Shown here piece after piece: positions 3,965 through 21,041 of a stretch of 21,158 nt of DNA (within the stretch, counting starts at the first letter, position 1; each line of letters begins with the position of its first letter). The notes below the pieces were generated by a model. The model saw nothing but the letters and a program-made list of their open reading frames with translations, was not told where the DNA came from and ran no database searches. The translations under genes and the position numbers were made by a program. The stretch comes from a virus, in IMG/VR virus record IMGVR_UViG_3300046787_000143, positions 1 to 21,158 of that record; one strand, given 5' to 3'.

Positions 3965-4957
3965 ATGAAAAAAACAGACAGAATTTTAGTTACTGGTGCA
4001 AGTGGTTTCATCGGTTCACATTTATTACGATTATTATATCAGAAAGGATATAGAAATCTTCGTGCAACATCGTATGTTAGAGGATTAAGAAAAGATTTTG
4101 AAGGAAGTGAAAGCATTCCTCATTACAAAGGTAATTTACAGGATGCTAAATTCTGTCAAGAAGTTTCAGAAGGAGTTGATGTAGTATTTCATTGCGCAGC
4201 AAACACATCAAATGCATTGGATACTAAATTCAATCCATTATTACACGTTACTCCAAATGTGGAGATGAATGTAAATCTAATGGAACAAAGTTGGAAAAAC
4301 AAAGTTAAGAAATTCTTATTTATTTCTTCTAACACAGTTTATCCTGATATGTTAAATGAGTTTTGCACAGAAGATATAAATGTCCACGCAACTCCATTAG
4401 TTCCTGTTTACAAAGCAGTAGGTGGCATGAAGAGATATGGTGAGCAACTTTGTGATTTCTTTTCAAATCAAATTCACGAACCAATGCAATGTTTGATTGT
4501 TAGACCTTCAAACGCATTTGGTCCAAATGATAAATACGATTACGAAAAGTGTCACGTTACTCCTGCAAACATCCGTAAGGTAGCAGATGGTTTGAATCCT
4601 ATTCCAGTTTGGGGTGATGGAACAGAGGTAAGAGATTTATTACACGTTGAAGATATGGCAGATGGTTTTATCTTTGTAGCAGAAAACAATGATACATACA
4701 ACATCTTTAATGTATGTTATGGTGAAGGAGCAACGGTAAATGAAACACTTGCATTAATTAAAGAATTGGATAATAATACAAATCCAATTGAATATGTGAA
4801 TAACAAAGCACCAATGATTCCAGTTAGATTATTATCATCTAAAAAGATAAACGATTTGGGTTGGAAACCAAAGAGAGATTTGAGAGAAGCACTTAAAGAA
4901 TCTTTGGAATGGTATAAAGAACATAAAAACGAATTTAACCCTAATTCAAAACCGTAA
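3965..4957 (+). CDS. Extended SDR: second NAD-dependent sugar-nucleotide enzyme, atypical active site
   Basis: A 330-residue protein with TGASGFIG at residues 10-17 (G11, G14, G17), the FISSNTVYP active-site strand (Ser121, Ser122), VRPSNAFGPND at 179-189 and WGDGTEVRDLLHVEDMADG, all standard for NAD-dependent epimerase/dehydratases of the GalE/RmlB type. The family isomerises, dehydrates or reduces nucleotide sugars in the cytoplasm. The YxxxK position reads VGGMK (152-156): Lys156 is present but the Tyr is Val. The nearest Tyr is Tyr149, seven residues before the Lys. The same substitution class as in the SDR at 1208, but with a different residue, argues against sequencing error. The SISS/SSN strand and Lys suggest NAD binding is retained. 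The stop overlaps the start of the TPP-domain gene (TAATG). The substrate is unknown. Confidence 0.88.
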   Translation: MKKTDRILVTGASGFIGSHLLRLLYQKGYRNLRATSYVRGLRKDFEGSESIPHYKGNLQDAKFCQEVSEGVDVVFHCAANTSNALDTKFNPLLHVTPNVEMNVNLMEQSWKNKVKKFLFISSNTVYPDMLNEFCTEDINVHATPLVPVYKAVGGMKRYGEQLCDFFSNQIHEPMQCLIVRPSNAFGPNDKYDYEKCHVTPANIRKVADGLNPIPVWGDGTEVRDLLHVEDMADGFIFVAENNDTYNIFNVCYGEGATVNETLALIKELDNNTNPIEYVNNKAPMIPVRLLSSKKINDLGWKPKRDLREALKESLEWYKEHKNEFNPNSKP

Positions 4958-5499
4958 TGAGTGCACCACAATTTTCTCCATATAAAGATGAACTAACAAA
5001 GGCAATGACATTTCTTGCTAAAAAGGAAGATACAATTTTTATTGGACAACAAATAGTTTATGCTGGAAACCCAATGAGCACAACTTTGGGTGAAGTTCCA
5101 AAAGAAAAAATGATTGAAGTGCCTGTTATGGAAGAAACACAAATGGGTATGAGTTTAGGATTGGCAATAACGGGTAAAACCGTTATTACCTTTTATCCTC
5201 GTTGGGATTTCCTAATATCAGCAACAAACCAATTGGTAAATCATGCTGATAAGTTTGAGAATATGACGGGTAAAAAAGCAAACATTATCATTAGAGTTGG
5301 TGTTGGTAGCACAAATCCATTAGACCCAGGTATTCAACATAGAAACGATTACACACAAGAATTTAAATCTATCTTACAATTTACAAAAATTTGGGAATTA
5401 AAAAATCCAAATGATATTTATAAGATATACACAAATGCGTATAACGACGGTGGTGTTCACATTATAGTAGAATGGCCTGAATTATACTATGAAAACTAA
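4957..5499 (+). CDS. Transketolase/E1-beta-type pyrimidine-binding (TPP) domain protein
   Basis: A 180-residue single-domain protein. It matches the Pyr domain of transketolase and 2-oxoacid dehydrogenase E1-beta: IFIGQQIVYAGNP, then the strand VPVMEETQMGMSLGLAITG and the helix FLISATNQLVNHADKF, then a strand IIIRVGVG. Glu59 is placed five residues before Gly64, as in the PxxExxxxG signature where Glu activates the thiamine pyrimidine. The family transfers two-carbon or acyl units through thiamine diphosphate. It lacks both the diphosphate-binding domain and the C-terminal transketolase domain, so it needs a partner subunit, not present in this window; one could lie left of base 1. The overlap with the SDR gene (TAATG) ties it to sugar modification, for example branched-chain or C2-extended sugars (inference). 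Confidence 0.75.
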   Translation: MSAPQFSPYKDELTKAMTFLAKKEDTIFIGQQIVYAGNPMSTTLGEVPKEKMIEVPVMEETQMGMSLGLAITGKTVITFYPRWDFLISATNQLVNHADKFENMTGKKANIIIRVGVGSTNPLDPGIQHRNDYTQEFKSILQFTKIWELKNPNDIYKIYTNAYNDGGVHIIVEWPELYYEN

Positions 5500-5657: not shown

Positions 5658-8600
5658 ATGAATTTGAAAGAAGTAGATAAACCAGAAGTAAAAAACACCG
5701 TTGTAGTTTATTCGGGTAGGTTTCAACCATTCCATAGTGGACATTATATTTCTTACTTAAAACTATGTAAAAAGTTTGGTAAGAATAATGTCTACATTGG
5801 CACGTCTAATGATACATCATATCCAAAATCTCCTTTTAACTTTAATGAGAAAGTAAAAATAATGACTAAAATGTTTGGTGTTCCATCAGACAAAATAGTT
5901 CAAGTTCGTAACCCATATGCTCCAAAAGAGATATTATCATCATTCGATGGTAAAACAACTCAATACATTGCAGCAGTTGGAGAGAAAGATGCAGATAGAT
6001 TAAAAGGCAAATACTTTAAACCATATAACGGTAAAGCTGGATATGGTTATGAAGAAATTGGTTATGTATATCCCGTTCCTGCTGAATCAAATGCAATTAG
6101 TGGAACTGATGTTCGTAATTGGTTAGGTAATGGGGGCGAAGAAGAAAAGAAAAAAGGATTTTTAAAAGCATATCCTAAATTTGATAAAGATATATTCAAT
6201 ATGATAACAGGTAAGTTAAATGAATCTGTAAACACAGAACCATCTTCTGCGTTGAGACCTGAACCACATCCAACGAGACATGAGACAGAACATCCAGAAG
6301 ATGAGAAAAAGGCATTTGATGGTAACAAAGCACCATATGACCCAATTGGAGAAATTATTAATGAATATATTACAAATGAAATGTTTGAGGAGTTTATCCA
6401 AAATTATTTAGGAGAAGCACCAAATGCAAATTTAGACCAAGATATATCATATACAGATACAAAAGGAAAACCTAAAAAAATAAAGGCAAGAAGTGCATTG
6501 AGATTACCAAAAGACCACCCTGCACATATTCAAGCTGCAAAGTTGGTTGGTAATGATAAAGGTGCAAAGATGGCAAAAGGACCAGCAGATGTACCTGCCA
6601 ATGAACCAAAGAAAAAAGAAGAACCTGGTAAAGCAGCAACACAAGCTGCAAAACCATCGGTTCCAGGTCAACCTGTAAAACAAGGACAAACTCCACAAGG
6701 TAAAGCAGATAAAGCAGGAACACCTACCGATAAAGGGGGAGCAGAAGCAGGTGGTTCACCACAACAAGCAGACCCACAAAAGTTAAAAGGTGCTGAATTA
6801 AAATCAGATGCTGAAAAGAAACAAGATAAAGAAAAAGGTTTCTTTGGTAAGTGGGGAGATAAATTTAAAGAAGAGGTTAAAGAAATTAACGATACCATTA
6901 AAAACTTTTTAGATGAAGATGAAGCTCATGCCGCAGAAGAAGGACATGACCCTCATTCTGAAACAAGAAAAGGTTGGAAAGAAAAAGCTACTGATTTCAT
7001 ATCAAAAATGCCTGCAAATATAGCAAAACATTTGTTAAAAGTTGCAAAAGATAAAGTTCATCAGGTAAAAAATACAGGCAGAGGTATTCAATCACTTGCA
7101 GTTTCTTTATCACAAGGTAAGGGATTGAAGTTGGGATACTTTAAAGATAGAGATGGGCAGTGGAAACATAGTGATAGAGAAGCCGAAAGACAGAAGAAAG
7201 CAATGAAATCTACTGCTTATGATATAGCAATAACTGCGGCAGCGGTTGTGGGAGCAGGAGCATTTGCGGCAGGTAAAACTGCATTTTTAGCAGGTAAAGG
7301 ATTAAGTGGTGTAGCAAGTTCGGCGGCTCATGGTGGTATAGAAACAATAGCACATGGTGCAGGAGCTTTTTTAAATCATATGGCAGTTGATTTTGGAAAA
7401 CATTGTTGGAAAGAATCAATTTTTATGGCAGCTGGTGCAGGACATGGTGAAGCAGCTAAATTGGCTATGGGAGCTGGTCTTGTAGGTGAAAGTGTTTACA
7501 AAAACTTTATAAACGAAGAAGAAGAGACGAAGCAAAATGCTATGGCATATGGTGAAATGTTGAAGCAAACTTTGGAAAGAATGAACACATTTGAACCATC
7601 TCCAAAGCAATATTTGGATATGTTGAAATCCTATGCAGCAACAAAGCAAAAAGGTAATTTAGATAAAATGATAGGTTCAGTAAATGAGAACCTTTCGGAT
7701 TCTAAAAAATCAAACATACAAAACTTTATAGAATACGGAACTAAGAGATTAAAATTAAAAGAACAACCTAGAATTTCATTTATAGAAGGAGAAGAATACG
7801 CTCACGCACAATCTTCATTAGGTGGATACAATCCTCAAACAAAAGAAATATATGTTGCAGTTGAAGGAAGATTGACAGCAGATATTTTAAGAACTCTTGC
7901 ACATGAAATGGTTCATAGAAAGCAAGATGAATTAGGATTAGTTGGAGACCCTGTAAAAGCAGGAGCAGATGGTTCACCAGTTGAAAATCAAGCACATGCC
8001 GTAGCAGGTATTCTTATGAGAGAATATGGTAGATTAAATAAACAAATCTACACAGAGGTTAGTAATGTAGGAACTGCAAATACGGCAGACGTTCCAGATG
8101 GTGCTTTTATAAAGAAAGGTAAGAAAAGAACATTGGATGCTGATAAAGGAGAAGCATGGTATTCAAACGGTGGATATACTCAAACCGATTTTCCAAAAGC
8201 AGATGCTATATTTGGAGATGAAGATGGCGAAGAAAGAACTGTAAAATACACTATAAAAAACTTACCAGATGTTGAGTATGTTGAAACCGATTTCTTTAAA
8301 GAAGACATTAATATAGATGTTGATAAAGGAGATACTGTTTTAATGGGTAAGTTTAAAAACAAAAAAACTACGGTTAAAGATATTGGAACTGATGACCATG
8401 GAATGCCAACAATCAACGGAAAGAAAGCAACCACATTCAGAATACCAAGAGGTTCAGACCAAAATGTATTTGATGAAGTAACTACCAATGATTGGCATTT
8501 TAAAGCAATTATGAAATTGTATGATAAATCAAATTCATTTGGTAAGAAGAAGATTGGAGTGGCGGTTTGTAAAGACCCAAATGCTAGCAGAAGAGATATT

Positions 8601-11600
8601 GTAGTTCAGTTGAGAGATACTGATTACGAAGAAGTAACTGCTATTACAGATAAATTGCGATTATCAGAATATATCGAAAAAAAAAAATTAAGTGAAAAGC
8701 TAACACATTCTAATTTAGATAGTGTTGAAAAATATGCAGATAGAGAATTAGACCCTGCTGATATTGAATTTAGTAATCACTTTTTCGATAGAGTAAATGA
8801 TACTCGTAATGGTAAAGAAATATCAGAACCAGAACTAACTGGTTTTTTTAAAAGATTAGCAAGACACAAAAAAGAATTCTTATCATTTTTAGATAAATAC
8901 AATCAAATTGTAGTTAAAGATGACAGAAGTAATATCAATATTCCATTTGTAAAAATGGCAAATAAAGTTATTGCTAAAACTGTAATGAGAAAAGGTGATT
9001 TTCAAACATCATCTCCTACAATCGTAAATGAAATTACACAAGGTTTATATGCAGGAACTCTTAAAATTGGTGGTAAGCCAGTTGAGATTGAAGTTGAATT
9101 GTTAGGAGCAGATAATAAAACAAAAGAGTTTTTAACAAAGATAATTCACATAGATAAAGAATATCAACACAAATTACCTATTGGTTCTACATTCAGAATA
9201 CCGGCAAGAATATTCAGATTACCTGGTGGCGGATGGCACAAAATCAAATCATCTGCATTTAATGAAGCAATAACATCAAAAACTCATAAAGCAGATACAA
9301 CTGCTGATAAACAGTTTACACAACATCATAAATCATCAATGTATGCACCAGATTACGGTTATCCTGCGGAATTTGATACTTACGATTTTGATGATAATGT
9401 TGGAAAAAAGAAACCAGGATTTCAAACGGACACAAAAGATAAAGAAGATAGAGGATACGAACCTGTAAAGGAAGAAACTGCACCTGAAATTATAAAAGAT
9501 TTAGATAAGGTAAGACACGATTTGATTAAAAAGGTAGATGTTTTAATTGCTAAAAAGAAAAAACTTTACTCTAATGTTGATATTGAATCACCGATGAGTG
9601 CAGAAGAAAAACAATTGGATAAAGATATACAATCTATATTTTCACAAATTCAACAGATAATTCTTAAAAAGAGAAGTTTAAAAGAATCTTTAAACGAAGG
9701 CATTCAATGGGAAGCTGATGTATTCACTCGTTGTATGCAAGGTCAATTACCACTTTCACTTAATATAGTAAAAAAATTAGTAGACCCAATAGTTACAAAA
9801 TCATTGCATGTAACGGATATTGCAAATTTACCAAAAGTAGCAGCATTAGAAGGAACTAAAAAATCAATTTCTACATTTAATAAAACTACTAAATGGGGAA
9901 AAATTGCGCAAGGTAAAGGATTATGGACGGAAGGTGGTGTAATTGTATCATTATCGGGTGTTGTATTAGCACAAAGTATAATGGACTTGTGGACTAGACC
10001 CGATAAGCAAGGTAGAAGATGGGTAGAGCCAGGAACTGTAATATCTGGCTTAGGAAGAAGTGTAGGGCAAGTATTTGAATTTGCACCACATTTAGAACCA
10101 TTTAAGAAAAGATGGTTGAATTTACAAAGATATGAAACGGCAGAAGAAAAGATTGAATTTACACCGGAGGAAAAAAATAAGTTCATAAGAGATTATTTTG
10201 AAGCAGCGGAAAAGTATATGCTGAGTAAGAAAAAAGAATTTCAAGACCAATATTTAAATTCTAACAAATTATATTATGATGTTGATTGGAATGAAGTAGT
10301 TCTTACGAATATTAAAATCGAAAAGATTTTAGTTATTCCATCGGTTGTAAAAACCAAAACAAAAGTTGGAACTTGGGAATGGGATACCAAAGATGAAGCA
10401 GATAAACAAAGAGAAATAGATAAAATAAAACAAAAATACAGAAATGTAGAGGTTGCTAAAAATGAGGCTGATATTGAAAACTTTATCAACAATAATGGTG
10501 GTCAAGTAATACATGAAAATATAAATAAAACCAAATCTATATTATCGGAAGGTGGTGCATACGGACACATGTCTCACCCGTTTGATGATATGAAATTAAC
10601 TTTCGGTGATTTAAAAAATATTATCAGAGGAGCACTTACAGGTAATTTAGAATTAACAAGAGAGAAAACAGATGGGCAAGCATTAGCAATCAGTTGGAAA
10701 AATGGTAGATTGATTGCAGCAAGAAACAAAGGACACTTACAAAATGCAGGAGCAAATGCTATGGGTATTGAAGATGTTGCATCAAAGTTTGCAGGTAGAG
10801 GTGGATTAACCGATGCTTACAACTTTGCTATGAAAGATTTATCAGCAGCAATTAGTGGTTTGACAGAGGCACAGAGAACGAAGATATTTAATGAAGGTAA
10901 GTGTTTTATGAACTTAGAAGTTATCTGGCCTACATCGGTAAATGTGATACCTTACGGACAACCCTTATTAGTATTCCACAACACAACTTGCTACGATGAA
11001 AGTGGTAAAGCAGTTGGTGCTGACCAATCGGCAGCTACCAAATTAGCAGGAATGATTAAGCAAATAAACGGAAACGTTCAATCGAAATATACGATACAAG
11101 GACCTCCGGTAACAAACTTACCTAAAACGGAAGAGTTGAGTTCTAAACAAAATAAATACATAACTCAATTACAAAGATTACAACACGTTTTCCAATTATC
11201 GGATAGAGCAGGTGTTGCAGAATATCATCAGGCTTGGTGGGAAGATTTTATAAATAAGAGTGGTGTTAAATTACAAAAGTTAGAAAAAGAAGCTCTTATT
11301 AGAAGATGGGCATTTGGAGATAAAGGTTTCCGTTTAAATACTATTTCTGATAAAGAAGCACAAGAATGGGCAATAAAAAATGATAAGGTAAATGTAGCAT
11401 CCCAACAAAAAGAAAATATCAGACCATTTGAAGAGATATTTTTAGGAGTAGGTGCAGATGTTCTTTCATTTATGAGTTCTGTTCTTACTGTAAATCCAGA
11501 AACGGCAATTCGTAGTATGGCAGATAGATTAGAAGCAACTGCTGAAAAAGTAAGAGGTAGTGGTGATGTATCTAAAATTGCTAAATTGGAAATGGAATTG

Positions 11601-11738
11601 ACTAGATTAGCTAGTATTGGTGGCAAGGATAAAATAGTTCCAAACGAAGGTATTGTGTTTGTTTACAAAGGAAACACTTACAAACTTACAGGAACATTTG
11701 CACCATTAAATCAAATTTTAGGTATATTTTACGAATAA
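5658..11738 (+). CDS. Giant multidomain phage protein: NMNAT-like, HExxH peptidase-like and KxDG ligase-like domains (probable polyprotein)
   Basis: A 2026-residue protein. Residues 14-185 form an HxGH nucleotidyltransferase domain: GRFQPFHSGH at 20-29 and ISGTDVR at 147-153, as in NMN adenylyltransferases. A region rich in Lys, Pro, Gln and Gly follows (about 190-400), then an Ala/Gly-rich hydrophobic stretch (about 518-611). A metallopeptidase-like motif HEMVH is at 749-753 with a possible third ligand Glu776 (VENQAHAVAG). The segments at about 870-960 and 1020-1110 are unassigned. A Lys-rich coiled coil is at about 1273-1345. Residues 1631-2026 carry the nucleotidyltransferase/ligase motifs KTDG (Lys1670), LEVIW (Glu1754), EGIVF (Glu1997) and YKLTG (Lys2009). 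LxE sites at 189, 253, 1347 and 1631 resemble T4 prohead-protease sites. It lies beside head genes, so packaging and processing in the head is plausible. The start at 5658 places Met 13 residues before the first strand. Confidence 0.85.
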   Translation: MNLKEVDKPEVKNTVVVYSGRFQPFHSGHYISYLKLCKKFGKNNVYIGTSNDTSYPKSPFNFNEKVKIMTKMFGVPSDKIVQVRNPYAPKEILSSFDGKTTQYIAAVGEKDADRLKGKYFKPYNGKAGYGYEEIGYVYPVPAESNAISGTDVRNWLGNGGEEEKKKGFLKAYPKFDKDIFNMITGKLNESVNTEPSSALRPEPHPTRHETEHPEDEKKAFDGNKAPYDPIGEIINEYITNEMFEEFIQNYLGEAPNANLDQDISYTDTKGKPKKIKARSALRLPKDHPAHIQAAKLVGNDKGAKMAKGPADVPANEPKKKEEPGKAATQAAKPSVPGQPVKQGQTPQGKADKAGTPTDKGGAEAGGSPQQADPQKLKGAELKSDAEKKQDKEKGFFGKWGDKFKEEVKEINDTIKNFLDEDEAHAAEEGHDPHSETRKGWKEKATDFISKMPANIAKHLLKVAKDKVHQVKNTGRGIQSLAVSLSQGKGLKLGYFKDRDGQWKHSDREAERQKKAMKSTAYDIAITAAAVVGAGAFAAGKTAFLAGKGLSGVASSAAHGGIETIAHGAGAFLNHMAVDFGKHCWKESIFMAAGAGHGEAAKLAMGAGLVGESVYKNFINEEEETKQNAMAYGEMLKQTLERMNTFEPSPKQYLDMLKSYAATKQKGNLDKMIGSVNENLSDSKKSNIQNFIEYGTKRLKLKEQPRISFIEGEEYAHAQSSLGGYNPQTKEIYVAVEGRLTADILRTLAHEMVHRKQDELGLVGDPVKAGADGSPVENQAHAVAGILMREYGRLNKQIYTEVSNVGTANTADVPDGAFIKKGKKRTLDADKGEAWYSNGGYTQTDFPKADAIFGDEDGEERTVKYTIKNLPDVEYVETDFFKEDINIDVDKGDTVLMGKFKNKKTTVKDIGTDDHGMPTINGKKATTFRIPRGSDQNVFDEVTTNDWHFKAIMKLYDKSNSFGKKKIGVAVCKDPNASRRDIVVQLRDTDYEEVTAITDKLRLSEYIEKKKLSEKLTHSNLDSVEKYADRELDPADIEFSNHFFDRVNDTRNGKEISEPELTGFFKRLARHKKEFLSFLDKYNQIVVKDDRSNINIPFVKMANKVIAKTVMRKGDFQTSSPTIVNEITQGLYAGTLKIGGKPVEIEVELLGADNKTKEFLTKIIHIDKEYQHKLPIGSTFRIPARIFRLPGGGWHKIKSSAFNEAITSKTHKADTTADKQFTQHHKSSMYAPDYGYPAEFDTYDFDDNVGKKKPGFQTDTKDKEDRGYEPVKEETAPEIIKDLDKVRHDLIKKVDVLIAKKKKLYSNVDIESPMSAEEKQLDKDIQSIFSQIQQIILKKRSLKESLNEGIQWEADVFTRCMQGQLPLSLNIVKKLVDPIVTKSLHVTDIANLPKVAALEGTKKSISTFNKTTKWGKIAQGKGLWTEGGVIVSLSGVVLAQSIMDLWTRPDKQGRRWVEPGTVISGLGRSVGQVFEFAPHLEPFKKRWLNLQRYETAEEKIEFTPEEKNKFIRDYFEAAEKYMLSKKKEFQDQYLNSNKLYYDVDWNEVVLTNIKIEKILVIPSVVKTKTKVGTWEWDTKDEADKQREIDKIKQKYRNVEVAKNEADIENFINNNGGQVIHENINKTKSILSEGGAYGHMSHPFDDMKLTFGDLKNIIRGALTGNLELTREKTDGQALAISWKNGRLIAARNKGHLQNAGANAMGIEDVASKFAGRGGLTDAYNFAMKDLSAAISGLTEAQRTKIFNEGKCFMNLEVIWPTSVNVIPYGQPLLVFHNTTCYDESGKAVGADQSAATKLAGMIKQINGNVQSKYTIQGPPVTNLPKTEELSSKQNKYITQLQRLQHVFQLSDRAGVAEYHQAWWEDFINKSGVKLQKLEKEALIRRWAFGDKGFRLNTISDKEAQEWAIKNDKVNVASQQKENIRPFEEIFLGVGADVLSFMSSVLTVNPETAIRSMADRLEATAEKVRGSGDVSKIAKLEMELTRLASIGGKDKIVPNEGIVFVYKGNTYKLTGTFAPLNQILGIFYE
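8677..8687 (+). other. Run of 11 adenines inside the 2026-residue gene (possible slippage site)
   Basis: The A-run encodes Lys1008-Lys1010 and the end of Glu1007, just before LSE (1011-1013). Adding one A gives Ile-Lys-stop; removing one gives Asn-stop. Either slip would therefore yield a roughly 1010-residue N-terminal product. Runs this long are known slippage sites for RNA polymerase in AT-rich genomes. It is the longest A-run I found in the window; function is inferred only. Confidence 0.3.
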
Positions 11739-13079: not shown

Positions 13080-14687
13080 ATGGCAGTTCAAGGACAACCA
13101 AAAAAGAGTCTGAAAGAGATAATATCAGACGAATATCGTAAATGTAGTTTAGACCCCATTTACTTTATGAAAAAGTATTGTGTTATCCAACACCCAACTA
13201 GGGGTAAAATACCATTTCACTTATATCCGTTTCAGGAAAACTGTTTAACAGATTTTAAACAAGACCGTTTTAATATCATCCTTAAATCTCGTCAGTTGGG
13301 TTTATCAACTCTATCTGCGGGATTTATTCTTTGGAAGATGTTATTTAATCAAGACTTTAATGCATTGGTTATTGCAACCAAAGTAACGGTTGCAAAGAAC
13401 TTGGTTGAAAAGGTTAGAGTAATGCACGATTTATTACCGGTTTGGTTGAGAGATGGTGGCAACTCTTCGGTTGAAGATAACAAACTATCACTTAAATTAA
13501 AGAACGGTTCGCAGGTTAAAGCAATTGCATCTTCACCTGATGCAGGTCGTTCGGAAGCCTTATCACTATTGGTTGTGGATGAGGCAGCATTTATTAGAGA
13601 TATTGATGAGATTTGGTTATCGGCACAATCTACTCTATCAACGGGTGGTTCGGCAATTGTATTATCTACACCAAATGGTATTGGTAACTGGTTTCACAAA
13701 ATGTGGGTAGAGGGAGAGAGTGGAACAAACGGTTTTAATTGTATCAATCTCCATTGGACAGTTCACCCAGAAAGAAATCAAGCTTGGAGAGATGAACAAA
13801 CTCGTATTTTGGGAGCAAAGGGTGCAGCACAAGAATGTGATTGTGACTTTGTTGGTTCAGGTGCTACGGTAATCGAACCCGAATTATTAACTTGGTATAA
13901 GAACACTTATGTTATGGAGCCAGTTGAGAAAGCAGGGTTCGATAGAAATCTATGGAAATGGGAATATCCAAACTACAATAAACAATATATGGTTGTAGCT
14001 GACGTTGCCCGTGGAGATGGAGCCGATTATTCAACTGCACAAGTTTTAGATATAGAGGATTGTTCTCAGGTTGCAGAATATAGAGGCAAGATTGACACAA
14101 AAGATTTTGGAAATTTCCTAACTGCATTGGCAACTGAATATAATAATGCACTTTTAGTAGTAGAAAACTCAAACATAGGTTGGGCATGTATTCAGCAGAT
14201 TATAGATAGAGGATACCAAAATCTATTCTATATGAGTAATGACCTAAAATATATAGATGTTGAAAGACAGATGAGTAACAAATATTACAGAGATGAAAAG
14301 CAAATGGTAGCTGGTTTCTCTACAACATCTAAAACTCGTCCTCTTATTATTTCGGCATTAGATACATATATGAATGATAGAGATATTCTCATTCGTAGTA
14401 GTAGATTGATTGATGAATTATTTACATTTGTTTGGCAAGGTGGTAGAGCAGAAGCAATGAAAGGATACAATGATGACTTGGTAATGGCATTGGGTATTGG
14501 ATTGTGGGTTCGTAATACCGCACTTCGTCTAAGACAAGAAGGAATAGATTTAACTAAAAATATGTTGAATTCCACAACGGTAAATCATTATCAGGGTGTG
14601 ATTTCAACTGGTTATTTAAAACAAAACCCATACGAAATGGAAGTGGGTAGAGGAGAGACTGAAAATTTAACTTGGTTACTTCGGTAA
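13080..14687 (+). CDS. terL: Terminase large subunit (T4 gp17-like DNA packaging motor)
   Basis: A 535-residue ATPase-nuclease that drives DNA into the prohead and cuts the concatemer. The ATPase domain has a Walker A variant SRQLGLST (70-77), Walker B LLVVDEA (164-169, Asp167 and Glu168) and the coupling motif STPNG (196-200). The RNase H-like nuclease domain shows the three acidic positions: Asp308 in VVADVARGDGADYS, Glu362 in LLVVENSNIG, and Asp465/Asp466 in YNDDLVMAL. This matches the order in T4 gp17 (Asp401, Glu458, Asp542), and the protein is close to its usual length. The gene begins one base after the preceding stop and ends before a probable promoter at 14672-14703. The T4-like set continues with portal and prohead protease downstream. 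Confidence 0.97.
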   Translation: MAVQGQPKKSLKEIISDEYRKCSLDPIYFMKKYCVIQHPTRGKIPFHLYPFQENCLTDFKQDRFNIILKSRQLGLSTLSAGFILWKMLFNQDFNALVIATKVTVAKNLVEKVRVMHDLLPVWLRDGGNSSVEDNKLSLKLKNGSQVKAIASSPDAGRSEALSLLVVDEAAFIRDIDEIWLSAQSTLSTGGSAIVLSTPNGIGNWFHKMWVEGESGTNGFNCINLHWTVHPERNQAWRDEQTRILGAKGAAQECDCDFVGSGATVIEPELLTWYKNTYVMEPVEKAGFDRNLWKWEYPNYNKQYMVVADVARGDGADYSTAQVLDIEDCSQVAEYRGKIDTKDFGNFLTALATEYNNALLVVENSNIGWACIQQIIDRGYQNLFYMSNDLKYIDVERQMSNKYYRDEKQMVAGFSTTSKTRPLIISALDTYMNDRDILIRSSRLIDELFTFVWQGGRAEAMKGYNDDLVMALGIGLWVRNTALRLRQEGIDLTKNMLNSTTVNHYQGVISTGYLKQNPYEMEVGRGETENLTWLLR

Positions 14688-14727: not shown

Positions 14728-15315
14728 ATGGATTTAACTAAAATACTCAAAGAATTAGAAAACCCTTGTTGGAAAGGATATGAGATGGTTGGAATGAAAG
14801 AAAAGGACGGTAGAGAAGTCCCTAACTGTGTTCCGGTATCAGAAGATAAAGGACCTTGTTGGAAAGGTTATCAGCAAGTTGGTATGAAGGAGAAAGATGG
14901 TAGACAAGTTCCAAATTGTGTGCCTGTAAGTGAAGATATTAATTCTGATGATGATGTAAACTATGGTATAGTTGAACCAGAAGAATATGATGTTGAGGAT
15001 GAAGATATGGAAGACTTCATTTCATTTATGAGAGGATATGATAAAAACTTAAATGAAGGATGTCAATGTTTAAGAGAAGCTGAATATCAAGGTAGAGAGG
15101 TTCAATTGGGTAAACCAATGGCAGGTGATGTGAAGAAATTCAAAGTATATGTTAAAAATCCAGCTGGTAACGTTGTAAAAGTAAACTTTGGTCAAAAGGG
15201 AGTTAAAATTAAAAAGAACAATCCGGATAGAAGAAGAAGTTTCAGAGCAAGACACAATTGTGACCAACCAGGTCCGAGACATAAGGCAAGATATTGGTCT
15301 TGCAGAAAGTGGTAA
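14728..15315 (+). CDS. Phage protein with CWKGY...VPNCVP repeats and C-terminal ARHNC...YWSC domain
   Basis: A 195-residue protein. Two 30-residue tandem units (residues 13-42 and 43-72) each contain PCWKGY, VGMKEKDGR, VPNCVP and SED. An acidic linker follows (about 70-105). The C-terminal domain (about 120-195) has VYVKNPAGNVVKVNFG, then a basic stretch ending in SFRARHNC, PGPRHKARYWSCRKW. The two Cys per repeat plus Cys, His and Trp at the end suggest metal-binding or disulfide-like knuckles. I recognise both parts as recurring in uncharacterised proteins of marine and other T4-like phages near the portal, but no function is established. The N-terminus MDLTKILKEL resembles short amphipathic leaders in neighbouring head genes. 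It is transcribed from the probable promoter just upstream. Confidence 0.85.
   Translation: MDLTKILKELENPCWKGYEMVGMKEKDGREVPNCVPVSEDKGPCWKGYQQVGMKEKDGRQVPNCVPVSEDINSDDDVNYGIVEPEEYDVEDEDMEDFISFMRGYDKNLNEGCQCLREAEYQGREVQLGKPMAGDVKKFKVYVKNPAGNVVKVNFGQKGVKIKKNNPDRRRSFRARHNCDQPGPRHKARYWSCRKW
14764..14943 (+). repeat. Two tandem 90-base coding repeats
   Basis: Units at 14764-14853 and 14854-14943 encode PCWKGY-to-VPNCVPVSED twice. The protein repeats differ at only a few positions, while synonymous third positions have diverged, so the duplication is maintained by selection on protein sequence. Confidence 0.85.
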
Positions 15316-15373: not shown

Positions 15374-17122
15374 ATGGCAGATAAATCAGTATTTAGTAGA
15401 TTACAGAAACTCTTTTCAACTAACACAATTGTTAGACAAACACCGAGTGGAGTTAAGGTAATTGATACAGACGAGTACCAAAATATGACGACCAATCTTA
15501 TTGACCGTTATATGAAATTAAAGGTTACAAATTACGGTTCAGGTCAAATTGAATCTTCTATGGCATATGCGCAAGTTCGTATTGACCTATTTAGAGATTA
15601 CGATTCAATGGATATGGACCCTGTTTTGGCATCTGCATTAGATGTTTATGCCGATGAGTGCACTGCTAGAAATGAAATGGGTAATGTATTAAAAATACAT
15701 CACGAAGATGATAATGTCAAACAAATATTAGAAAATCTTTTCTATGATATTTTAAATGTTGAGTTTAATCTGTGGCCTTGGACAAGAAATTTAGTTAAAT
15801 ACGGAGATTTCTTTTTACAATTAGAAATGGCTGATAAATTGGGTATTATAAATGTAATGCCGTTATCTACTTACGAAATGAGTAGAGTAGAAGGTTTTGA
15901 TGCAGAAAATCCACAAAGAGTTAAATTTATCTATGCACCGTATCAAAATCCATATGGTGGAGCATTGAGTTCTCCTAAAAAAGAATTTGAAAACTATGAA
16001 ATTGCTCACTTTCGTTTGAATTCAGATTCAAACTTCTTACCTTACGGAAAATCTATGATTGAAGGGGCAAGAAGAGTTTGGAAACAATTGATGTTAATGG
16101 AGGATGCTATGTTGATTCACAGAGTGATGAGAGCACCTGAAAAAAGAATCTTCAAAGTAGATGTAGGTAATATTCCACCAAACGAAGTGGATAACTACAT
16201 GCAGAAGATTATAAATGCATCAAAGAAAGTTCCATTTATTGATGATAAAACCGGTGAGTATAACTTAAAATACAATATCCAAAACCTTATTGAAGATTAC
16301 TATATGCCAGTTCGTGGTAGTGATAATGGAACATCTATCGATACATTAAAAGGTTTAGAATATAATATGATTGATGACCTTAACTACTTAAAAGGTAAGT
16401 TAATGGCTGCATTGAAAATTCCAAAAGCATATTTAGGATATGAAGAAGATACAAACGGTAAGGCAACCCTTGCTGCTATGGATATTCGTTTTGCTAAAAC
16501 TATTGAAAGAATCCAAAGAGTAATCATTTCAGAATTAACTAAAATTGCAATCGTTCACTTATATGCACAAGGTATAGAGGATGAAAGATTAACAAACTTT
16601 TCATTAGAATTAACCATACCATCTAAAATCTATGAGCAAGAGCAAGTAGAATTATACAACTCAAAGGTTGCGTTAATTCAACAAATGCAAACTACAAAGA
16701 TGTTCTCCAAAGAATGGATGTATGAGGCAGTAATGAAGATGGCAAAGGATGAGCAAGATACAATGACATTACAAGTGTTAGAGGATACTAAACAAATGTT
16801 CCGTTTAACATCAATAGAAACACAAGGAACAGACCCTGCTAAACCAACTGGTGTAGAAGGTGGACCAACCAATGTTGAAGAAGAAATAGAAAGAATAAAT
16901 GCAGAATTGGAAGAAGACGGTAAAGTTGGAAGACCAAAAGACCCTGTTAGATACGGACACGATGACCACCCAGAGGGTAGAGACCCATTGGGAATAAAAA
17001 CTCTTAAACAAAAAGAAGACTCTGTTGGATACAAACCTAGAAAAAATTCTTATTTAGAAATATTTAAGGATATGAATGGAAATAAAAAAACTATTTTAAC
17101 AGAAGATTTAACAAAAGAGTAA
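15374..17122 (+). CDS. gp20: Portal protein (T4 gp20-like)
   Basis: A 582-residue protein forming the dodecameric vertex ring through which DNA enters, and to which terminase and neck bind. Family signatures are visible in order: RYMKLKVTNYGSGQIESSMAYAQVRIDLFRDYD-like N-terminal region, DPVLASALDVYADECT (about residue 82), PWTRNLVKYGDFFLQLE (about 135), YLKGKLMAALKIPKAYLGYEE (about 335) and IRFAKTIERIQRVIISELTKIA (about 375). The length is in the T4 gp20 range (524 residues) with an added acidic, Pro/Gly-rich tail (about 490-582) containing GRPKDPVRYGHDDHPEGRDP. The gene has its own probable promoter, and a second one follows its stop. It sits between terminase and head-core genes, as expected for T4-like phages except that tail genes 18 and 19 are not in between. 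Confidence 0.95.
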   Translation: MADKSVFSRLQKLFSTNTIVRQTPSGVKVIDTDEYQNMTTNLIDRYMKLKVTNYGSGQIESSMAYAQVRIDLFRDYDSMDMDPVLASALDVYADECTARNEMGNVLKIHHEDDNVKQILENLFYDILNVEFNLWPWTRNLVKYGDFFLQLEMADKLGIINVMPLSTYEMSRVEGFDAENPQRVKFIYAPYQNPYGGALSSPKKEFENYEIAHFRLNSDSNFLPYGKSMIEGARRVWKQLMLMEDAMLIHRVMRAPEKRIFKVDVGNIPPNEVDNYMQKIINASKKVPFIDDKTGEYNLKYNIQNLIEDYYMPVRGSDNGTSIDTLKGLEYNMIDDLNYLKGKLMAALKIPKAYLGYEEDTNGKATLAAMDIRFAKTIERIQRVIISELTKIAIVHLYAQGIEDERLTNFSLELTIPSKIYEQEQVELYNSKVALIQQMQTTKMFSKEWMYEAVMKMAKDEQDTMTLQVLEDTKQMFRLTSIETQGTDPAKPTGVEGGPTNVEEEIERINAELEEDGKVGRPKDPVRYGHDDHPEGRDPLGIKTLKQKEDSVGYKPRKNSYLEIFKDMNGNKKTILTEDLTKE

Positions 17123-18302: not shown

Positions 18303-18854
18303 ATGCCAGCACAATCAAAAGCACAACAAAGATTTATGGGAATGGTTCATGCTGCTCAAAAGGGAGATATGGAAAATCCATCTCCGGAAGTTGAGAAAGC
18401 AGCCGATTCAATGTCTGATAAAGATGCTAAGGATTTTGCATCAACAAAGCACGATGGTTTGCCAGAAAAAATAAAAGAATTTATAATTAAAGAGGCAAGA
18501 GGTCTTAAAACTATCCATAAAGAGTATGGTGATGTTGTAGACCAAATTCAAAAACATTTAGAATTATACAAACAATCAAAAGGAACTCCTGCTGAAAAAC
18601 AACATATCCAACATCTTAAACAATTAAACGATAAGAAGAAGGAATTATCAGCAGAATTAGACCAAAAGATTAGTGGTATTTATAAAGATGCTGAATTGAA
18701 AGTTGATGAAATGAATACATCATCAGCTGCTGGTCCTTATAACACACCCTTTGCATTTAGTGGTAAAGATAGTGAGGAGAAGAAAGGAAAGAAGCAAGCA
18801 GATTTAACTGGATACACAGTAGTTAAAGAATCTAAAACTAAAAAGAAGAAATAA
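18303..18854 (+). CDS. DUF3008-like N-terminus with charged helical tail, head-region protein
   Basis: A 183-residue protein. The N-terminal 55 residues, MPAQSKAQQRFMGMVHAAQKG to DAKDFASTKHDGLPEK, match the DUF3008 type (SKAQQRfmGmv, then a Ser-rich FAsTkhxGLP block). A coiled-coil-like middle follows (about 70-135), then the segment VDEMNTSSAAGPYNTPFAFSG (about 136-157) and a Lys-rich tail. The AAGPYNTPFAFSG segment followed by a KKG-rich tail is a pattern I associate with phage head-core or scaffold proteins. The composition is highly charged and probably largely disordered at the end, as expected for a core or DNA-binding protein. No catalytic residues are seen. A promoter-like box directly follows its stop. 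Confidence 0.8.
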   Translation: MPAQSKAQQRFMGMVHAAQKGDMENPSPEVEKAADSMSDKDAKDFASTKHDGLPEKIKEFIIKEARGLKTIHKEYGDVVDQIQKHLELYKQSKGTPAEKQHIQHLKQLNDKKKELSAELDQKISGIYKDAELKVDEMNTSSAAGPYNTPFAFSGKDSEEKKGKKQADLTGYTVVKESKTKKKK

Positions 18855-18886: not shown

Positions 18887-19372
18887 ATGAAATTAAATCA
18901 ACTAAGAGAATTCGTTAAGCAAGTTGTAAGAGAAGAGCAAGACTACCAACAACTTTTCAAACATATGTTAGATAAATCTGGCAAATCTATTCCAGATATG
19001 TCCGATGATGAAAAAAAGAAATTCTTTAATGCAGTAGATACGGCATATAAAGCAAAATCGGAAGGTAGACTAACAGGATACAACGAAGCAGAACTATCCG
19101 GTGGGCAAAAGAAATTGGATGTTGATAAAGATGGTGATATTGGTTCAGATGATTTAGCAGATTTGAGAGCTGGTAAAAAAGCAGATGAATCTATAAACGA
19201 AGAAGATATCAATTGGAGTGCAACCGAAAATGCAATCATTAACTTTCTAAAAGCAAATACAAAGATTTTAGATAAAAGAGTTAAAGATAGAGATACTGAT
19301 GGTGTTAAAAAAGGTTTACAATCAATTATTGATGGTTTAACTAACGCACAGAGAAGTTTAAAGTTAAAATAA
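18887..19372 (+). CDS. Head-core-type protein with EF-hand-like calcium loop
   Basis: A 161-residue, acidic, helical protein. The N-terminus MKLNQLREFVKQVVREEQ is an amphipathic helix rich in alternating Leu/Val and ending in Glu-Glu, like a capsid-targeting leader. Residues 78-89 (DVDKDGDIGSDD) form a canonical 12-position EF-hand or dockerin-type loop: Asp78, Asp80, Asp82, Gly83, Ile85 and Asp89. The remaining C-terminal half (about 108-161) is helical. No enzyme motif is visible. It ends with TAATG, overlapping the prohead protease start by one base, so the two are probably translationally coupled and made together. This fits a scaffold or core protein that the protease cleaves. That function is inferred. 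Confidence 0.85.
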   Translation: MKLNQLREFVKQVVREEQDYQQLFKHMLDKSGKSIPDMSDDEKKKFFNAVDTAYKAKSEGRLTGYNEAELSGGQKKLDVDKDGDIGSDDLADLRAGKKADESINEEDINWSATENAIINFLKANTKILDKRVKDRDTDGVKKGLQSIIDGLTNAQRSLKLK

Positions 19373-19962
19373 TGAACAAAGGATTACTAATAGAAACTCA
19401 CTTGTTCGAAGCCAAAATGGTAGAGCAAGACAATGGAACTTACCTAGTTAAAGGTGTTCTACAAAGAGCAGGTGCTCCTAACCAAAATCATAGAAGATAC
19501 CCAAAGCAAATCTTAGAAAGAGAGTGTAAGAAATACGAACAACTCATTAAAGAAAGAAGAGCATTGGGTGAATTAGACCATCCAGATTCTCCAATCATTA
19601 ACTTAAAGAACGTATCACACAACATTAGAGAAATCTATTGGGAAGGTGATGATGTATGTGGTGTGGTAGAAATCCTTTCAACTCCATCAGGAAACATTTT
19701 AAGAGAATTATTAAAAAACAATATTCGCTTAGGTATTTCATCCAGAGGATTAGGTTCAGTAAAAGAATTGAACGATGGAACTTTGATGGTTCAGGAAGAT
19801 TTTGAATTGGTAGGTTGGGATTTTGTATCTAACCCATCAACACATGGGGCATTTATGGCTCCGATGAATGAATCAAAACAATGGGCAAAAATTGCAGAAG
19901 AATGTGGAAAGTTCTGTAAAGCACAAGATTTAATGAGAGAAATTATCATAGAATTAAACTAA
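19372..19962 (+). CDS. gp21: Prohead core protease (T4 gp21-like serine protease)
   Basis: A 196-residue protein of the family that cleaves scaffold, core and capsid proteins during head maturation. Signatures are HRRYP (40-44), LGELDHPDSP with His70 as catalytic His, GISSRGLGS (121-129) with Ser123 or Ser124 as nucleophile, and VGWDFVSNPS (147-156) with Asp150 near the strand end. These match the T4 gp21 / herpes assemblin-like fold in order and spacing, and the length is close to the T4 protein (212). In T4 this enzyme cuts after Glu in (L/I)-x-E contexts. The gene overlaps the EF-hand protein stop by one base and precedes two small proteins. Confidence 0.93.
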   Translation: MNKGLLIETHLFEAKMVEQDNGTYLVKGVLQRAGAPNQNHRRYPKQILERECKKYEQLIKERRALGELDHPDSPIINLKNVSHNIREIYWEGDDVCGVVEILSTPSGNILRELLKNNIRLGISSRGLGSVKELNDGTLMVQEDFELVGWDFVSNPSTHGAFMAPMNESKQWAKIAEECGKFCKAQDLMREIIIELN

Positions 19963-20232: not shown

Positions 20233-20670
20233 ATGATACGTTTAAAAGATTTACTTAAAGAATCAGAAGAGTTACAACAACTCCCAACTGAATTAAAAAG
20301 ACATTTCTTAGAAATCATTTCTACCTATGGACAACATAGAGAAGGAATGGCAAGAAAATCTGATATTAGACAAGTTGCTGAAACTTTGGGTGGTATTGCA
20401 GATGCGGCACAAGAATATACTTTGAGAGAAGGTGGTGATTGGTTCGATAGAGTTACGATTAAACGTAATATGGGTGAATTAAAGAAATTACAAGCTGCAT
20501 TTGAAAAAGAAGCAATTGAAGCAAAATCACAAGAACAAAGATTAGAATCTCTATATGAAGATATGGGGCATGTTTTAGGAAGATATTTTGAAATTGCAGA
20601 TGTATCCGAAGATGTTATGAAAAGCAGATTGGGATTGAGAGAATGTAAAGAATGTAAAACGATTAAATAA
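20233..20670 (+). CDS. Conserved helical phage protein with MIRLKDLLKESEEL leader
   Basis: A 145-residue protein with a leader MIRLKDLLKESEEL, whose LKE-Ser matches the T4 prohead-protease consensus (L-x-E, then a small residue) at residues 7-9. The core is helical, with GGDWFDRVTIKRNMGELKKLQAAF (about 77-100) and LYEDMGHVLGRYFEI (about 117-131), segments that look conserved in uncharacterised T4-like head-region proteins. It ends with RECKECKTIK, with Cys pair CKEC. No enzyme motif. Its stop overlaps the next start (TAATG). Function unknown; a core or scaffold-associated role is inferred from context. Confidence 0.78.
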   Translation: MIRLKDLLKESEELQQLPTELKRHFLEIISTYGQHREGMARKSDIRQVAETLGGIADAAQEYTLREGGDWFDRVTIKRNMGELKKLQAAFEKEAIEAKSQEQRLESLYEDMGHVLGRYFEIADVSEDVMKSRLGLRECKECKTIK

Positions 20671-21041
20671 TGGAAGAATTAGCATCATTATTATTACAAA
20701 GTAGAACACAAGCTCACTCATTTCATTGGGGAGTTAAAGGAATTGGCTCACATTCGGCACACGTTGCATTAGGTGAGTATTATGAAGCAATTGGTGGATT
20801 AGTAGATGATTTAGTCGAAGCATACCAAGGTAAAGAAGGTTTGATTCAAATTTCAGGAATCGGAACTTTGGATAAAAATAATGATATTAAAAACATTATT
20901 AAATATTTCGAAACCTTATGCAATTTAGTTGCAAAATTAAGAACAAATCCTAAATTGCAAGATAGTTGGATACAGAATGATATTGATACTGTTGTATCTT
21001 TATTATATAAAACTAAATATAAATTGGTTAATCACCAATAA
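20670..21041 (+). CDS. Minimal Dps/ferritin-like protein (DUF5856-like)
   Basis: A 123-residue helical protein. The segment SRTQAHSFHWGVKGIGSHSAHVALGEYYEAIGG aligns with the Dps helix A/B region (HWxVKG...H...), and VDDLVEAYQGK gives the acidic pair. His19, His31, Asp46 and Glu50 have the spacing 12, 15 and 4, as in the Listeria innocua Dps ferroxidase residues His31, His43, Asp58 and Glu62. The equivalent of Asp47 is Gly35, with Glu36 next to it. Dps proteins are about 150-180 residues, so this is short. I recognise it as a phage family of Dps-like proteins, where function is unproven. Its start overlaps the preceding stop by one base. A strong terminator follows 20 bases after its stop, so it is the last gene of the unit. 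Confidence 0.75.
   Translation: MEELASLLLQSRTQAHSFHWGVKGIGSHSAHVALGEYYEAIGGLVDDLVEAYQGKEGLIQISGIGTLDKNNDIKNIIKYFETLCNLVAKLRTNPKLQDSWIQNDIDTVVSLLYKTKYKLVNHQ

Follow-up and report, generated by a model that had tools for sequence, protein, structure and literature searches.

Positions 1 to 21,158 of virus record IMGVR_UViG_3300046787_000143 (hereafter the window, 21,158 bases of one strand) come from a T4-like, lake-derived phage and form a 21-kb fragment without a capsid gene. The window holds one unbroken open reading frame (ORF) of 2026 codons, exactly at 5658-11738 on the plus strand, upstream of and on the same strand as the genes for the large terminase (terL), the T4-type portal and the S77 prohead protease. 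A preliminary description, made from the sequence letters, had proposed here a single 2026-residue protein next to head genes that combines NMNAT-like, peptidase-like and ligase-like domains, and both the ORF and the T4-type head genes downstream of it were borne out. The motifs behind that proposal (HxGH/ISGTxxR, HExxH and KxDG-EGIVF) are all present, and the catalytic residues of each domain are nearly invariant across tens to hundreds of relatives. Given this conservation, and the PF01467 and PHROG 395 matches of the first domain, the motifs are not chance occurrences. All three domain identities hold, with a certainty that falls from the nucleotidyltransferase to the metallopeptidase to the ligase. 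The residue ranges assigned to them (1-190, 700-800 and 1630-2026) were close to ours, the ligase-like module starting directly after a cleavage-like site at E1631; what had been overlooked was a fourth module (~1014-1128), a pattern of cleavage motifs, and the swapping of modules among relatives (Table 1).

The first domain (residues 6-188) scored 24 bits against Pfam PF01467 (CTP_transf_like), above the curated cut-off of 21, and matched PHROG 395 at 4e-12. With this match and its HxGH and ISxTxxR motifs it belongs to the NMNAT/cytidylyltransferase superfamily, and its profile reached the structures of NMN and phosphopantetheine adenylyltransferases (NMNAT/PPAT). The curated Pfam match bears out the NMNAT-like domain predicted in residues 1-190, for which a profile search had been suggested. 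The score against the NMNAT equivalog TIGR01527 (22.4 bits) is far under its cut-off of 181.

For the HExxH module, the structural model that contains it was mostly confident over its first 118 residues, and the top PDB matches were IrrE/PprI-like proteins, minigluzincins and CapP (E 0.02-0.3). These gluzincin/IrrE-like folds agree with the earlier guess of a metallopeptidase, as does a stand-alone phage homologue that scored 19.5 against Pfam M78, below the cut-off of 22. A PDB profile search with the module gave no match. A second HExxH string, HETEH at residues 207-211, lies in a linker and was dismissed as a chance occurrence.

The C-terminal module, described here as RNA-ligase-like, has in order KTDG (motif I of the nucleotidyltransferases), RN (Ia), E (III), EGxxF (IV) and YK (V). 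K40TDG, R59, E124, E367G and K379 of alignment A4 are nearly or fully invariant, and the second lysine of motif V is replaced by Thr. The model had a predicted local distance difference test score (pLDDT) of 81, and its top 15 PDB fold matches were all RNA ligases, including archaeal RNA ligases, T4 Rnl1 and T4 Rnl2, each of them weak when taken alone (E 0.04-0.7). These low scores are perhaps due to the ~200 mostly helical residues that separate motif III from motif IV. When searched directly by sequence, the domain gave no meaningful match in Pfam or PDB, and matches to eS6 and to fusion proteins were rejected as noise. The ligase guess was thus the weakest of the three, and what upholds it is the full motif set together with the fold matches. 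In the relatives L010 and L031 (and in L011 by the same ORF split) a split intein separates the K of motif I from its TDG; since inteins prefer active sites, an insertion exactly inside KTDG suggests that the motif is functional. At L010:9992-16458, as also in L011, L031 and L168, the split intein breaks the gene within its ligase part: the N-part follows ...REK and begins CIAGDTIIH..., the C-part ends YYANDILVHN before TDGQALAIS, and between the halves lies a separate EIDESHH-containing ORF, a putative homing endonuclease.

The fourth module is common to phages of Methylophilales, Flavobacterium and Sinorhizobium, and we tentatively describe it as a RegB-like endoribonuclease. Sub-threshold similarity to RegB (PF10715) was seen in 10 of its 19 members, with a score of 20.3 bits against a cut-off of 27. 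An hhalign comparison with T4 RegB was not significant (E 0.27), a PDB profile search gave no match, and the predicted structure had a pLDDT mostly below 50. No credible annotation was found for residues 190-684 and 1130-1630; the former stretch (6228-7710) comprises a Lys/Pro/Ala/Gln-rich segment and a hydrophobic Ala/Gly-rich region (~515-615), with no family match.

Table 1. Features of the 2026-residue ORF and of the head genes downstream (window coordinates; a slash marks the candidate cleavage point, here and in the text).
Feature	Residues	Position	Strand	Basis
Gene for modular 2026-aa protein, a proposed polyprotein		5658..11738	+	ORF and homologues
Short N-terminal leader MNLKE (LxE) ahead of nucleotidyltransferase		5658..5672	+	[LI]xE in leaders of relatives (counts in text)
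NMNAT-like nucleotidyltransferase domain	6-188	5673..6221	+	PF01467, phrog_395, profile against structures
HSGH active-site motif (H26-S-G-H29)	26-29	5733..5744	+	Alignment
ISGTDVR motif	147-153	6096..6116	+	Alignment; S148, G149, T150 and R153 invariant
LNE/S candidate cleavage site after nucleotidyltransferase	187-189	6216..6224	+	
LGE/A candidate site in EFIQNYLGE/APN, internal, capsid-targeting-like	251-253	6408..6416	+	
HExxH metallopeptidase module, gluzincin/IrrE-like	685-800	7710..8057	+	Alignments, model, fold search, stand-alone homologue
HEMVH zinc-binding motif	749-753	7902..7916	+	H, E and H invariant in alignment
E776 (ENQA), candidate third zinc ligand	776	7983..7985	+	Invariant (E94 of alignment A5)
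Fourth conserved module, tentatively RegB-like endoribonuclease	~1014-1128	8697..9041	+	PF10715 sub-threshold, weak hhalign
LKE/SLNE/GI double candidate site	1341-1347	9678..9698	+	
LSE/GG candidate cleavage site before ligase	1629-1631	10542..10550	+	[LI]xE in junctions (counts in text)
RNA-ligase-like covalent nucleotidyltransferase module	1632-2026	10551..11735	+	Motif conservation, model, fold search
KTDG motif I, K1670 putative adenylylated lysine		10665..10676	+	Alignment
EGIVF motif IV	1997-2001	11646..11660	+	E367, G368 and F371 of A4 invariant
Large terminase, terL		13080..14687	+	PF03237, phrog_2
T4-type portal, gp20		15374..17122	+	PF07230, 2.7e-70
S77 prohead protease, T4 gp21 type, proposed processing enzyme		19372..19962	+	PF03420, 1.3e-30

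To place the protein among its relatives we compared 192 related loci. Full-length relatives keep the first and the last domain around a middle part of 0 to ~1450 aa, in which modules are absent, replaced or reordered. The shortest middle, almost none, was found in a 639-aa protein of Microcystis phage Mel-JY01 (WWT39297.1), named 'cytidylyltransferase like protein' after its first domain only. It shares the same two end domains, an IIAE/GG junction and a position upstream of terL but lacks the middle modules, and its ligase module is predicted to start, after IIAE, as GGLGGHMNHPFD. Of the 137 related loci with sufficient flanking sequence, 136 have terL downstream, and an S77 protease gene lies downstream and nearby in 40 of 44. 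Other T4-like phages also carry the modules as genes of their own, and in S-SRM01 one for a peptidase-like protein adjoins one for a nucleotidyltransferase. A search of bacterial genome contigs returned five hits only, all in metagenome bins, and no host was therefore inferred.

T4 gp21 cleaves after L/I-x-E, and short N-terminal propeptides (capsid-targeting sequences, CTS) direct the internal proteins (IPs) to the head (PMC9026906). The ligase-like module is preceded by [LI]xE/GG in 108 of 109 distinct junctions (54/54 in the first set), in which P3 is L or I, P1 is Glu, P2 is any of 11 residues and the sequence further upstream is unrelated. As this is the cleavage motif of T4 gp21, we take it as evidence for processing. 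Between the start and the first domain, 63 of 70 distinct leaders also carry an [LI]xE; the leaders reach ~30 aa in relatives (for example MKGLAKFLVETILGE/A). In 59 non-redundant fused proteins, [LI]xE[AGS] was enriched in linkers (179 observed, 82 expected) and depleted in domains (43 observed, 75 expected), although the ligase junction accounts for up to 59 of the 179 linker sites and the numbers are inflated by relatedness. Eight control motifs lacked such a linker excess, the largest being that of [AGS]E.[LI] (101 against 81). Sites of the [LI]xE type lie at the boundaries of the proposed mature modules. They also occur in the major capsid proteins of relatives, as LLE/G and LLDE/A in the N-terminal propeptide region, near the position of FLTE/A in T4 gp23, and the S77 protease of the window has HLFE/A at its own N-terminus. 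Two distant relatives from metagenome bins (L314:5001 and L315:3792) have LLM/GG before the ligase instead of LLE/GG.

As the E and the GG hardly vary at the edge of the domain, [LI]xEGG might have a structural or catalytic role in the ligase-like domain and be no protease site. We regard this as very unlikely: P2 is free while P3 is only L or I, the first six residues of the ligase model have a pLDDT below 50, L125, a distant homologue, has no GG yet shows LDE/S upstream, and the motif recurs ahead of other modules and at the end of leaders.

Further indications came from stand-alone homologues. T4 IPIII starts MKTYQEFIAE/A, and the cyanophage nucleotidyltransferase family starts MKxFxQF[IL]xE/A. 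[LI]xE[AGS] was present in 45 of 48 distinct cyanophage starts, against a background of 2.4% of 586 unrelated ORFs, in a sample that is somewhat biased as one search pattern spanned the N-terminus. The stand-alone peptidase family starts MNYKQFLRE/S or MLYKQFL[VL]E/S, with the exception of the peptidase-like copy of S-SRM01, which lacks such a leader, and the stand-alone ligases start MKFLKSYEEFLNENLILE/GG in LR756500 and MIRLHKILNEVLLKE/GG in others. The NMNAT of S-SCSM1 (ORF91), which starts MKSFLQFLKE/A, was found by mass spectrometry in CsCl-purified virions (PMC9602691), and a cytidylyltransferase was found in virions of S-CREM2 (PMC10665884).

We consider it likely that the gene product is a fusion of several T4-type internal head proteins that would be packaged, cut by the prohead protease and ejected with the DNA. 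The suggestion in the preliminary description that a polyprotein is packaged in the head and cut appears well supported by the [LI]xE joints between modules, the S77 protease in the cluster, the T4-type leaders and the virion mass spectrometry of a homologue; the phage itself encodes both a T4-type portal (PF07230) and a gp21-type S77 protease (PF03420) within the window. Several observations weigh against this reading. The evidence on packaging comes from stand-alone homologues, the fused members being known from their sequences; the cyanophage NMNAT is only remotely related to the window domain (hhalign E 2e-6), and both virion studies warn that highly expressed proteins might carry over (PMC9602691, PMC10665884). 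Counted in the window protein by itself, the motif is not significantly more frequent than expected by chance (6 against 4.1, P ~0.24); we therefore turned to comparative tests, and it is on conservation and position that the argument depends. Some sites lie inside folded domains (LSE/AQ within the ligase of many members), in three distant ligase junctions (L208, L314 and L315) E is replaced by C or M, and seven leaders lack LxE. The window protein itself begins with only MNLKE/V, with no clear CTS, unlike the second subfamily and the stand-alone homologues, which have longer leaders. Finally, the ligase fold match is weak (best E 0.04, TM ~0.24).

The gene could also encode a single multifunctional enzyme, made late, neither cut nor packaged, whose fusion serves co-regulation only. 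Cleavage is deduced from motifs, LxE counts in one sequence are ordinary, and a late-gene neighbourhood alone is no proof of packaging. We nevertheless find this explanation unlikely, because the junction stays conserved while P2 varies and the sequence before it is unrelated, linkers hold an excess of the motif, the stand-alone homologues bear leaders, and a homologue was detected in virions. A somewhat less probable alternative is a polyvalent protein (Iyer et al, 2017), injected as one chain or freed by its own HExxH peptidase rather than by the prohead protease. Polyvalent proteins, with which we compared the window protein by published description only, likewise join many catalytic domains in one phage polypeptide and are thought to be delivered to the host; the multidomain architecture with a peptidase adjoining head genes is in line with this class, for which embedded peptidases have been proposed to free the domains (PMC5512222). 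They differ in that processing here is apparently by the prohead protease. Against this alternative, the cut-site motif fits gp21-type specificity, and the [LI]xE/GG junction is kept in the fused relatives L002, L053, L048, L170 and L191, in which no HExxH module was detected.

Under the preferred reading of fused internal head proteins, the 2026-aa precursor would enter the prohead core via its leader or CTS-like segments. The gp21-type S77 protease, encoded 8 kb downstream, would then cut after [LI]-x-E in the linkers, as the conserved sites suggest, and release at least an NMNAT-like enzyme (~6-189), a small metallopeptidase, the RegB-like module and a 45-kDa RNA-ligase-like enzyme (1632-2026). 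By analogy with the T4 IPs and Alt, and given that a stand-alone homologue is a virion protein, the released enzymes would stay in the head and be ejected with the DNA. They may act in the cell before phage gene expression. Judging from family membership, the ligase would most likely repair or remodel RNA, such as tRNA cut by host defence, the nucleotidyltransferase would most likely make NAD or a similar dinucleotide, and the peptidase would most likely cleave a host regulator or defence protein.

Elsewhere in the window, sugar-nucleotide genes lie upstream of the 2026-aa ORF. A 180-aa ORF at 4957-5499, with similarity to the transketolase pyrimidine-binding domain just below the cut-off, adjoins a gene for an NAD-dependent epimerase. 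Between terL and the portal gene, a 195-aa protein (14728-15315) has two CWKGYxxVGMKEKDGRxVPNCVP repeats, followed by LNE/G and LRE/A sites and a DUF5754-like end; it is possibly another processed head protein. The protein at 18303-18854 has an N-terminal DUF3008 (PF11450) and, in the window copy, an extension with FIIKE/ARG; in S-SCSM1 a similar protein, ORF93, has been annotated as belonging to the virion. The head cluster ends with a small ferritin/Dps-like protein (20670-21041; DUF5856, phrog_858, starvation-inducible).

Among known systems, T4 IPI, IPII, IPIII and Alt share with this locus the T4-type head cluster, a gp21-type protease, [LI]xE sites and, on the stand-alone homologues, CTS-like leaders. 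In T4, however, each protein has one short leader, whereas here several enzymes lie in one precursor with multiple internal sites. The cyanophage virion NMNAT/cytidylyltransferases (phrog_395; S-SCSM1 ORF91 and S-CREM2 ORF154) belong to the same nucleotidyltransferase superfamily, were detected in virions and, in S-SCSM1, have a T4-like CTS start; unlike the window protein, they are stand-alone genes, remote in sequence and with a different C-terminal part. The ejection proteins of phiKZ and SPN3US are also packaged in the head and cut after an xxE motif by a gp21-related protease, but have single long propeptides (with an AxE motif in SPN3US) and no enzyme chain. No paper that joins phage polyproteins with the prohead protease was found in the collection of papers searched, which is not proof of absence from the literature.

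Judged by sequence comparison, the fusion of several enzymes in one head precursor is probably an uncommon means of carrying a kit of exchangeable enzymes, one that would extend the internal-head-protein delivery of T4. With somewhat less confidence than for packaging and cleavage, we favour the view that virion cargo in this group of T4-like phages is made as a true polyprotein, with fixed end enzymes, an exchangeable cassette and protease sites that double as recombination joints, so that the kit would be changed by swapping gene parts. If so, prohead proteases would also act as polyprotein-processing enzymes, and an NAD-type enzyme, an RNA ligase, a metallopeptidase and a possible RNase would be candidate tools for takeover or counter-defence in the first minutes of infection. 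Phage-injected proteins are hard to find because they have no common signature; should [LI]xE joints and CTS-like leaders prove to be marks of head cargo, the injected enzymes of T4-like phages could be recognised directly from sequence in hundreds of uncultured lake phages.

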